DNA of 64,000 nt from Bacillota bacterium (GTDB lineage: Bacteria; Bacillota; Sulfobacillia; JAJZYS01; JAILZS01): contig JAILZS010000006.1 of the NCBI GenBank assembly GCA_023512375.1, forward strand, positions 1-64,000, read 5' to 3'. Of this stretch, positions 38,061 through 41,821 are shown in pieces; position 1 is the first letter of the stretch; the number at the start of each line of letters is the position of its first letter. The notes under the pieces are model-generated. The model was not told the origin of the DNA. It did not search any database and saw only the letters and a program-made list of their open reading frames with translations. A program made the translations under genes and the position numbers.

Positions 38061-38135
38061 TCCTCGATAGCTCAATGGTAGAGCACTCGGCTGTTAACCG
38101 AGCGGTTGCAGGTTCGAGTCCTGCTCGAGGAGCCA
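38061..38135 (+). tRNA. tRNA-Asn (GTT), CCA encoded
   Basis: The acceptor stem TCCTCGA pairs with TCGAGGA. The anticodon loop CTGTTAA gives GTT. The T arm has GGTTCGAGTCC. Discriminator G and CCA end at 38135. It is the first gene of a three-tRNA operon. Confidence 0.95.
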
Positions 38136-38140
38136 GTTGC

Positions 38141-38212
38141 GGGCCCATAGCTCAGCGGTAGAGCAGCCGGCTCATAACCGGTAGGGCGCACGTTCGAATC
38201 GTGCTGGGCCCA
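38141..38212 (+). tRNA. tRNA-Met (CAT), elongator or Ile2-type
   Basis: The acceptor stem GGGCCCA pairs with TGGGCCC, the anticodon loop CTCATAA gives CAT, and the T arm reads CGTTCGAATCG. It lacks the three G-C pairs of initiator tRNA in the anticodon stem, so it is an elongator Met or a lysidine-modified Ile tRNA. Unlike its two neighbours it has no encoded CCA (A followed by CAGG). Confidence 0.9.
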
Positions 38213-38226
38213 CAGGTGGAGCCTTC

Positions 38227-38301
38227 GGGCGGCTAGCTCAGTGGGAGAGCGCTTGATTCACATTCAAGAGGTCGCAGGTTCGAAACCTGCGCCGCCCACC
38301 A
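38227..38301 (+). tRNA. tRNA-Val (CAC), CCA encoded
   Basis: The acceptor stem GGGCGGC pairs with GCCGCCC. The anticodon loop TTCACAT gives CAC. The T arm is GGTTCGAAACC and CCA is encoded. An integrase tail lies 39 bases downstream, so this tRNA may have been the attachment site. Confidence 0.95.
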
Positions 38302-38328
38302 GGATTTCGGCATCCGAACGCGGTTTCT

Positions 38329-38357
38329 GGCCCCGGTGCTCAGGCACCGGGGCCTTT
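38329..38357 (+). terminator. Terminator of the tRNA operon
   Basis: GGCCCCGGTGC and its exact complement flank a TCAG loop, followed by TTT. It overlaps the last codons of the integrase fragment on the other strand. Confidence 0.75.
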
Positions 38358-38465
38358 GCGTTCCACACGCGTTCCACTCGATGGCGCCCATTCGGTCAGC
38401 CGTGGCGGGACCACGTGGGCGTAGATGCTGGCCGTGTCGGCCGGGTGGGCGTGGCCGAGGCGTTG
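38340..38465 (-). pseudogene. C-terminal fragment of a tyrosine recombinase (phage-type integrase)
   Basis: Minus-strand translation of this stretch gives QRLGHAHPADTASIYAHV followed by about 20 residues and a TGA at 38340-38342. The LGH and the Tyr eight or more residues later match box II of phage integrases, including the catalytic His and Tyr. Upstream (to the right) similarity ends and no start or upstream catalytic boxes were found, so it is a remnant. The position beside tRNA-Val suggests an old integration there. Confidence 0.7.
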
Positions 38466-38728
38466 AAGGGAAGCGGCGGCGAAGGGGCGGACGAAAGGGC
38501 GGTGGCAAGGCGCAGCGGCCTAAGGCACCTCCCTCCGAGTCCCCGGTCCCCCTTCGCGGCCGCGGCCGTACCGTGTATCGGCCGCCACCAGCGCGATCCG
38601 CCGGGAATCCGAACCCAAGCGCGGCGGCCTGGGAGAGGGCGGTGGGTGCGGCGCGGGGGGCGGTGGCTGCCAGAGCGCGGCACCGCGAGGACCCGAGGGC
38701 GCCGCGCGCAGCGAAGGGGGAGCGAACG

Positions 38729-39106
38729 ATGGGGACCATCGGGGCCGACGTTGCCAAGCTCTTGCTCGATTTGGTGTATGTGGTCTCGCTCGCGGCGATC
38801 GGCGCCGCCGCTTCATGGTTCCGCGCAAACACCACCGCTGCCCAGCGCGCGTTGCTGGGGGCGTTGGCGGCCATCGCCGTGCCATTCGTCGAGCGCGAGT
38901 TCCCAACCCTGAGCGGTGCCATGAAAGCCGCCAAGGCCGTGTCCCTCGTGCTGGAATGGCTCCGCCGGCGCGGCATCGCGATGACCCTGCAGGAGATCGA
39001 GGCCGCGGTCGAGGCCGCCTACGCCGAGGCCGAGAAGAGCGGCATCCTGGCCGTCTACGCCCCACCTCCCGCCCCCGCCCCGACGGCGAAGACCGCCGCC
39101 TCCTAG
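38729..39106 (+). CDS. LLH-family phage holin-like protein
   Basis: A 125-residue protein with one or two N-terminal membrane segments (LLLDLVYVVSLAAIGAAAS), a middle region VPFVEREFPTLSGAMKAAKA and a C-terminal helix MTLQEIEAAVEAAYAEAEK. This layout matches the phage holin LLH family (Holin_6_1), whose members make membrane lesions for lysis. ATG 38729 follows AAGGGGGAG. No endolysin or other phage genes are seen next to it, so it is an isolated relic or has been kept for a host purpose. Confidence 0.65.
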   Translation: MGTIGADVAKLLLDLVYVVSLAAIGAAASWFRANTTAAQRALLGALAAIAVPFVEREFPTLSGAMKAAKAVSLVLEWLRRRGIAMTLQEIEAAVEAAYAEAEKSGILAVYAPPPAPAPTAKTAAS

Positions 39107-39497: not shown

Positions 39498-40094
39498 ATG
39501 CGCACATGGAGGGCCCGGCTGTCGCTCGCCATCCTCGCCGCAGGCGCCGTGGGCGTCGCCGTGGCGGGATCCGTAGGGGCGGCCAACGCCAAGGTTCTGT
39601 ACACGAGCCGGCTATACGGCAACATTCCCAACGTGACCGTCCGGGGGGTGAAGGCCGGAGCGGCACCCTGGATCGTCCAAGGCAGCGCCCAGGTGACGAG
39701 CGATGCGCTCATCGTGCAAGGCACCGACCTCGTGGTGCCGCCCGGCGACATGGCCGACGGCAAGCCGGTGCCCAAGGCGCTCGTCGGCACCACGGTGGGC
39801 ATACCCAAGGTGGCGGCCGAGCTCACCTGCGGGCAAGGGACGTCGGTCCTCACTCCCGCGGTGACGCTGACCAAGCAGGGCGCGTTCAAGATCGACGCCC
39901 AGGTGAAGGTGCCCGCCGCGTGCACCGATCCCATCGTCCTCGTCGGTCCGGTGGCGAACGGGGCGATGAAGGCCTGGTTCGCCAGCACGAACTTCCTGGT
40001 CTACGGGCTTCCGGGAAGGAGCGCGCTGGGCTGGGGCGGCACGGCCGCGGGGTCGAGCTCCGGATCCGGTTCGAAGTCGACGTGGGGTGGCTAG
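39498..40094 (+). CDS. Secreted protein of unknown function
   Basis: A 198-residue product with a clear signal peptide (basic start, LSLAILAAGAVGVAVAG, likely cleaved near GAANA). The mature part has a beta-rich look, with two cysteines (LTCGQG and PAACTDP) that could form a disulfide, and a Gly/Ser-rich tail. No family is recognised. ATG 39498 follows AGGGGGAG; the track start is 13 codons upstream and would spoil the signal peptide. It lies just past the prophage remnant and may be accessory. Confidence 0.7.
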   Translation: MRTWRARLSLAILAAGAVGVAVAGSVGAANAKVLYTSRLYGNIPNVTVRGVKAGAAPWIVQGSAQVTSDALIVQGTDLVVPPGDMADGKPVPKALVGTTVGIPKVAAELTCGQGTSVLTPAVTLTKQGAFKIDAQVKVPAACTDPIVLVGPVANGAMKAWFASTNFLVYGLPGRSALGWGGTAAGSSSGSGSKSTWGG

Positions 40095-40184: not shown

Positions 40185-41369
40185 GTGCAGGCCCCGGATG
40201 CGCGGCGCCTCGGGGCGACGGTGCTGACGGGTTTCGCCGTCGCCGGCGGCGCCCCCCTGGCCGTCGTCGCCGTCTCGCTCGTGGGGGTGGCCGCCGTTCC
40301 GCCGCGCCTGCTGGTGGCGACCACCGCCCTGGGCCTGCTCATGTTCTGCGTCCCCCTCGCGGTCTGGCTCGGGTACGCGCGGACCGTCGCCTCCGGCGGC
40401 GGCCTGTACGCGTACGTGAGGGAGGCGGCGGGCGAGAGGGCGGCGCGGTGGCAGGGTTGGATCTGGAGCGTGGCCTACGTCCTCTACCTCCCGTACACCG
40501 TCGTCTACATCGTCGACGACCTCCTTCCGTCGGTCCTCCCCGTGCGCGGCGCCCTCGCCGCCGGCCTGGAGGTGGCGCTCGCCGCCGGCCTGTGCGCGGC
40601 GGCGGCGTTCGCCGGCGGCGGGCTGCCGCGCGTGTTGACGCTGCTCGCCGGGGCGGAGGTCGTGACCGTCGCCGCCTGGGCGGCGCTCGTCTTGGGGGGT
40701 TCGCACGGCGGGCCGGTGGTGGCTGTGCCGCTGACGGCCGCCGACTGGTCGCGGGTCGCCGCCGGCGGGGCACAGGTGAGCCAGCTTCTCGTCTGCTCCA
40801 GCCTGGTGACGTTCCTGGGAGGGGAGGCGCGGGACGCCGGTGCGGTGCGGCGGTCTCTCCTCCTCGCCTTCGCCGTCTTGGCCGGCTCGGTGTTCGTGGG
40901 GGCGCTCGTGCTGGCGGCCGGCGCCGCGCCGGGCGGGGACAGCGCGCTTCCCGGCGCCTCCCTGGCGGGGCGGTACGGGGGTGCGGCGGCGGCGCTCGCG
41001 CTGGCCTTCGCGGCCCTGGCCGCCGTCGCCGGCCTCATCGTGGCCGAGTTCGCCGCCCTCGTGCGCCTGTGGCGGGCGATGTTCGCCCTACCGGAGGGGA
41101 AGGGGACGGCCGTCGTCTCGGCCCTCTTCTTGGCCGGTACCGTCGCCAGCCTGGCCGGACCCCAACGCTTCTACTCCCTCACCTTGCCTCCGTCGCTGAT
41201 GGCGCTGTTCGCCTCCCAAGCCATCGTCTTCGCCACCTATCCCCTCCTGCCGCATACGACGCGGGGATCGGCGATTCGGGCCTGGGCGCTGGCCCTCCTG
41301 GCCTGCGCCTGGGCCGTCTACGGCCTTGTGGGCGCCGTGCGGGGATCCGGACTCCTGGGTTACGGCTGA
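40185..41369 (+). CDS. APC-superfamily amino acid permease-like protein
   Basis: A 394-residue protein made of about 11-12 hydrophobic helices. The first helix region (LTGFAVAGGAPLAVVAVSLVG) and SGGGLYAYVREAAGERAARW resemble APC transporters, where GGxYxYv follows helix 2. It is short compared with typical 450-500 aa family members. The substrate is not evident. GTG 40185 follows GGAGGG closely. It lies upstream of an ArgO/LysE exporter and arginase, which hints at amino acid traffic, but there is a 450-base gap. Confidence 0.75.
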   Translation: MQAPDARRLGATVLTGFAVAGGAPLAVVAVSLVGVAAVPPRLLVATTALGLLMFCVPLAVWLGYARTVASGGGLYAYVREAAGERAARWQGWIWSVAYVLYLPYTVVYIVDDLLPSVLPVRGALAAGLEVALAAGLCAAAAFAGGGLPRVLTLLAGAEVVTVAAWAALVLGGSHGGPVVAVPLTAADWSRVAAGGAQVSQLLVCSSLVTFLGGEARDAGAVRRSLLLAFAVLAGSVFVGALVLAAGAAPGGDSALPGASLAGRYGGAAAALALAFAALAAVAGLIVAEFAALVRLWRAMFALPEGKGTAVVSALFLAGTVASLAGPQRFYSLTLPPSLMALFASQAIVFATYPLLPHTTRGSAIRAWALALLACAWAVYGLVGAVRGSGLLGYG

Positions 41370-41821
41370 CCGAAACAGGACGGCGTACGGCCGGCTGCCG
41401 GAGACGGGGCGGCCGCGCGTGCGCGGGCTTCGTTCGCCATCCGACGGGGAGGGCCTCGGCCGGAGGGCTGGCCGCACCGCTTGGGCGAGCACCCCTCGGC
41501 GTGCGGCCGGCTCCCCGTCGTGCCCCCGGACCCTCGCACCGCCGCCGGCACGCCGTACGGCAGGGCGCCGCTCCAAAACCCTGCATGGGAGGCGAGTCGC
41601 TTCGCCTGGGGCGCGTCGTGGACCCACACGGCGAAGGCCCACCGGTAGCCGATGCAAGCGCATGGCTGCCGTGACTGCGCCGGGAGGAACCGCACGCGGC
41701 GGCACCGAAGGCTGCCCGTGACGCGCCTGCGCCGCCCGGGCGAGCGGCCTGCACCCGACCCCGCGTCCCCGTGCGAGCGCGGCGTCGGAGCGGTGGCGCC
41801 GAGAGGGGGGACGGACGGGCC
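41370..41821 (+). other. Long gap between permease and lysE-like gene
   Basis: No gene is accepted here. A minus-strand reading frame across 41360-42187 contains a protein-like patch (IGYRWAFAVWVHDAP) but most of it overlaps the lysE-like gene and is low complexity. No riboswitch was recognised. Confidence 0.4.

Follow-up and report, generated by a model that had tools for sequence, protein, structure and literature searches.

A stretch of DNA immediately downstream of a tRNA-Val gene in a Bacillota genome is probably what is left of a decayed prophage, in which a large internal deletion has brought the C-terminal end of a tyrosine recombinase next to an intact holin gene. The window, that is, the whole 64,000-nucleotide stretch, lies on contig C57 of a draft genome (2.68 Mb, 104 contigs), the sole representative of its family among the genomes used, and it was compared with genomes from the same order, class and phylum. 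A prophage scar at this position had been proposed in a first-pass annotation, and this reading is now well supported by profile searches, by intact relatives of both genes and by a whole prophage of like layout in the same class. The elements discussed below are listed in Table 1.

Table 1. Elements at and beyond the tRNA operon, with the evidence by which each was assigned.
Feature	Position	Strand	Evidence
tRNA-Asn, tRNA-Met, tRNA-Val operon	38061..38301	+	ARAGORN
Intrinsic terminator (hairpin, then TTTGCGTT) of the tRNA operon	38329..38354	+	
Tyrosine recombinase, C-terminal 46 residues and stop	38340..38480	-	G009 alignment and tail profile
Presumed deletion junction, integrase tail to holin	38481..38728	.	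No recognisable coding remnant
Intact LLH-type holin gene, 125 codons	38729..39106	+	PF09682, phrog_6918, phrog_2609, G009/G008 homologues

The tRNA operon has a primary sigma factor gene upstream of it, and the order tRNA-Asn, tRNA-Met, tRNA-Val is the same in all nine relatives examined. ARAGORN delimits the tRNA-Val gene at 38227–38301, and we infer that its 3′ end served as the attachment site. Beyond this gene the transcript would fold into a strong hairpin with a T-rich tail (z −5.5 for 38302–38366), and the stop codon of the integrase frame (38340–38342, 38 nt beyond the tRNA-Val end) sits within the 4-nt loop of this hairpin, just as the annotation had it when it located the stop inside the operon terminator. 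The tRNA operon still has a terminator, which, by analogy with the intact prophage described below, may have been brought in by the element itself.

The integrase frame points at the tRNA, in the position and orientation initially given. Its last 46 residues (AAASLQRLGHAHPADTASIYAHVVPPRLTEWAPSSGTRVERKGPGA) are recognisable, and the frame is closed by a stop 13 codons further upstream of them. The tail contains box II with the catalytic His (LGH) and Tyr (IYAH), and RLGHAHPADTASIYAHVVP could be aligned with intact integrases. The complete catalytic domain (R, K, HxxR) is missing, with only low-complexity matches to integrase upstream of the tail; the remnant is a non-functional fragment. A Pfam search returned no match for the tail and PHROGs gave only a weak one (phrog_1, E 0.3, profile positions 418–443), but a dedicated profile built from three integrase C-termini scored it at 29.5 bits (E 2e-8), compared to 7.8 bits for the next frame in the window and 12.9 bits for the best of 60 dinucleotide shuffles. 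Against an intact integrase from the same order (G009) the tail is 42.5% identical over 40 ungapped residues, and the alignment ends within one residue of the C-terminus of the intact protein. When 154 genomes of the class were searched with the tail, only two outside matches were obtained, both of them C-termini of full-length integrases that PHROGs assigns to phrog_1 (E < 1e-70). Since the matches to complete integrases and the tail-profile score are decisive, the tail is a true integrase C-terminus. That high GC content has instead produced this frame by chance, as might be argued from its length of just 46 codons and the empty Pfam search, is practically inconceivable: this reading is refuted by the profile search, in which the shuffles yield nothing comparable to an E of 2e-8, and by an ungapped alignment that runs almost exactly to a real C-terminus. 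The GC content by codon position (0.76/0.65/0.74) lacks a third-position peak, which points to decay, albeit only suggestively in a stretch of 46 codons.

The second element, a holin-type gene of the LLH kind that the annotation placed after the integrase tail, was confirmed as well. It starts 248 nt past the last recognisable integrase codon and matches Phage_holin_6_1 (PF09682) over nearly the whole profile with 34.7 bits, above the cut-off of 24.9; the NCBIfam equivalog holin_LLH (TIGR01673) scores 25.2 bits, under its cut-off of 34.75, and in PHROGs the gene matches phrog_6918 and phrog_2609 (holin). GGGGGAG precedes the ATG as a ribosome-binding site, the encoded protein has a single hydrophobic N-terminal stretch followed by a charged part and a Pro/Ala-rich tail, and the GC content by codon position (0.68/0.54/0.89) is like that of host genes. 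The closest relatives, 48% (G009) and 43% (G008) identical, come from the same order, and both stand directly after a gene for an endolysin-like Rv2525c-type glycoside hydrolase. One of these holin-hydrolase contigs is probably phage or plasmid DNA, because a Mom-like modification gene and a gene for a phage-type methyltransferase lie on it too; no structural gene was identified there. On contig C44 of G009 (L051), the holin and Rv2525c-type hydrolase genes adjoin genes for two subtilase-family proteases and a PLD-like protein, a cluster that could belong to the lysis region of a phage or be a cassette for release. Searches for holin relatives in phage records, in IMG/VR and in the collection of named genomes gave none that passed. 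An endolysin or hydrolase remnant beside the holin was looked for in the window and none was found; a single Rv2525c-type hydrolase gene is present elsewhere in the same genome, on contig C30.

How such an element looks when whole can be seen in another genome of the class (G142), where contig 1 carries an apparently complete 44.5-kb prophage at a tRNA-Arg gene (14.8–59.3 kb; L059, L084–L086). Its ends are marked by a perfect 46-bp repeat of the 3′ part of tRNA-Arg, with the far copy at 59.29 kb, and its integrase (phrog_1) faces tRNA-Arg, with 92 nt between the end of the gene and the tRNA. The terminase, portal and head protease genes lie on the strand opposite the integrase, as do the holin and an amidase-type endolysin, which are located towards the far end (53.9–55.2 kb). 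As read from the sequence, a GC-rich inverted repeat of the terminator type follows both tRNA copies, and the element thus appears to supply a terminator of its own on separating the tRNA from the previous one. The window resembles this prophage in that a phrog_1-family integrase adjoins a tRNA gene and points at it, and in its strand layout, with the integrase on the minus and the holin on the plus strand, as the late genes of G142 lie opposite the integrase. It differs in retaining just 46 integrase codons and one lysis-type gene and in having no second attachment site; moreover, the holin in G142 is from a different family (phrog_199). The window fits the G142 layout if almost the whole middle part is taken to be lost.

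A course of events can be proposed on this basis. A temperate phage would have integrated at the 3′ end of tRNA-Val, placing its integrase beside the tRNA and facing it, with the late genes on the opposite strand and, by analogy, the lysis cassette near the far end. One large internal deletion (we infer a single event), perhaps followed by later trimming, would then have left the final 46 codons of the integrase abutting the region just before the holin, and the far attachment site would also have been lost. The holin gene would have remained readable, whether silent, decaying or kept. Since the recombinase is fragmentary, packaging and head genes are absent from the flanks examined and a second attachment site is lacking, the remnant can neither excise nor make virions and is probably inactive as a mobile element.

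Several parts of a prophage are absent, and the lack of a far repeat and of an endolysin remnant counts against this course. The duplicate of the tRNA-Val 3′ end that had been suggested as a check does not exist in the assembly: a search of the genome that allowed up to 3 mismatches in 25 nt detected no second copy (attR), and a 12-nt repeat at 41726, the longest in the vicinity of the holin, was rejected as attR because shuffled sequence yields repeats of that length as well. The missing far repeat is consistent with a remnant and would be fatal for an intact prophage only. The claim that no other phage genes remain holds among the flanking genes examined, none of which is a structural, packaging or other phage gene. 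These are of host type (sigma-70, primase, arginase family, TrmK, NIF3 and a LysE-type exporter), together with a permease-like protein without a family match (40185–41369), which we interpret from its sequence as a transporter of the host. Next after the holin comes a gene (39498–40094) for a predicted secreted protein of unknown family with no PHROG match; the relatives of this protein, 41–47% identical, occur in six genomes from other families of the class and in none from the same order, and we take the gene to be of host origin. Elsewhere in the genome, a possible second copy of the scar on contig C86 (87% match over 39 nt) lies inside an unrelated coding sequence and was read as chance, and apart from it no other stretch resembles the scar. 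Separately, contig C50 (1–1036; L003) carries an intact integrase 0.5 kb from a tRNA-Lys gene at the contig end, possibly another tRNA-integrated element that was cut by the assembly.

The integrase tail and the holin likely stem from one element, and the link between them is only likely because LLH genes also occur as orphans in host chromosomes. In G029 (L071), where the neighbours were scanned, such a gene stands beside ferredoxin and FTR1-type permease genes. Translations read by eye give the same neighbours in G065 (L041) and an FTR1-like gene adjoining the LLH gene in G064 (L033), and in these three genomes the LLH-like gene seems to be a host gene resident in that family. In G468 (L072), a scan of the neighbours placed an LLH-like gene between nitroreductase and polysaccharide deacetylase genes, with no phage genes seen; this gene forms one clade with the LLH-like genes of G240 (L067) and G447 (L065). 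The tail could accordingly be the scar of a phage, plasmid or island, with the holin an independent orphan, either resident or separately arrived, and the tree, which does not resolve the window gene among the cassettes of the order, G078 and the f97 genes, leaves room for such a separate origin. We nevertheless consider it unlikely: just 248 nt separate the two genes, their strand layout fits a prophage, and both identity and path length in the tree place the window gene nearer to the hydrolase-holin pairs of the order. Because several genomes of the class and phylum carry orphan LLH genes with host genes as neighbours, the name LLH holin is by itself no evidence of a prophage, a side result that may matter more than the scar.

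A further possibility, compatible with a prophage origin, is that the holin now works as a host gene, retained either to lyse the cell in a controlled way or to export folded proteins without lysis; retention for lysis or release had also been raised initially. The complete frame, the ribosome-binding site, the host-like codon-position GC, the single N-terminal hydrophobic stretch and the hydrolase gene on contig C30 would all accord with retention. However, neither an endolysin nor a cargo gene is linked to the holin, the relatives of the secreted-protein gene downstream come from elsewhere in the class and not from its order, no relative is close enough to show purifying selection, and a recent deletion would leave an equally intact frame; judged by these features, retention seems decidedly improbable. 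Less credible still, and in our view very improbable, is the specific version of a domesticated holin that stays under selection after the loss of the prophage and acts as a partner of the C30 Rv2525c-type hydrolase or as a non-lytic exporter. If it were true, the same use would extend to the LLH genes that stand alone in other Bacillota chromosomes. Within the decayed prophage that we favour, the holin is the sole part that could still act.

Among known systems, bacteria use holins such as TcdE and TpeE for non-lytic export (type 10 secretion; reviewed in PMC9527704), and this is the route by which a retained holin could be useful. The window gene is like these in being a bacterial chromosomal gene for a small protein of the holin type, and unlike them in having no linked cargo or endolysin gene. 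With the Phage_holin_6_1/Holin_LLH family (PF09682, TIGR01673) it shares the length and the N-terminal hydrophobic stretch, but it differs in its sub-cut-off NCBIfam equivalog score and in having no adjacent endolysin. A prophage reduced to an integrase tail and a holin is a common kind of genomic fossil, and the window provides a clean small case of prophage decay at a tRNA gene, for which the intact analogue from the same class shows the likely starting layout.
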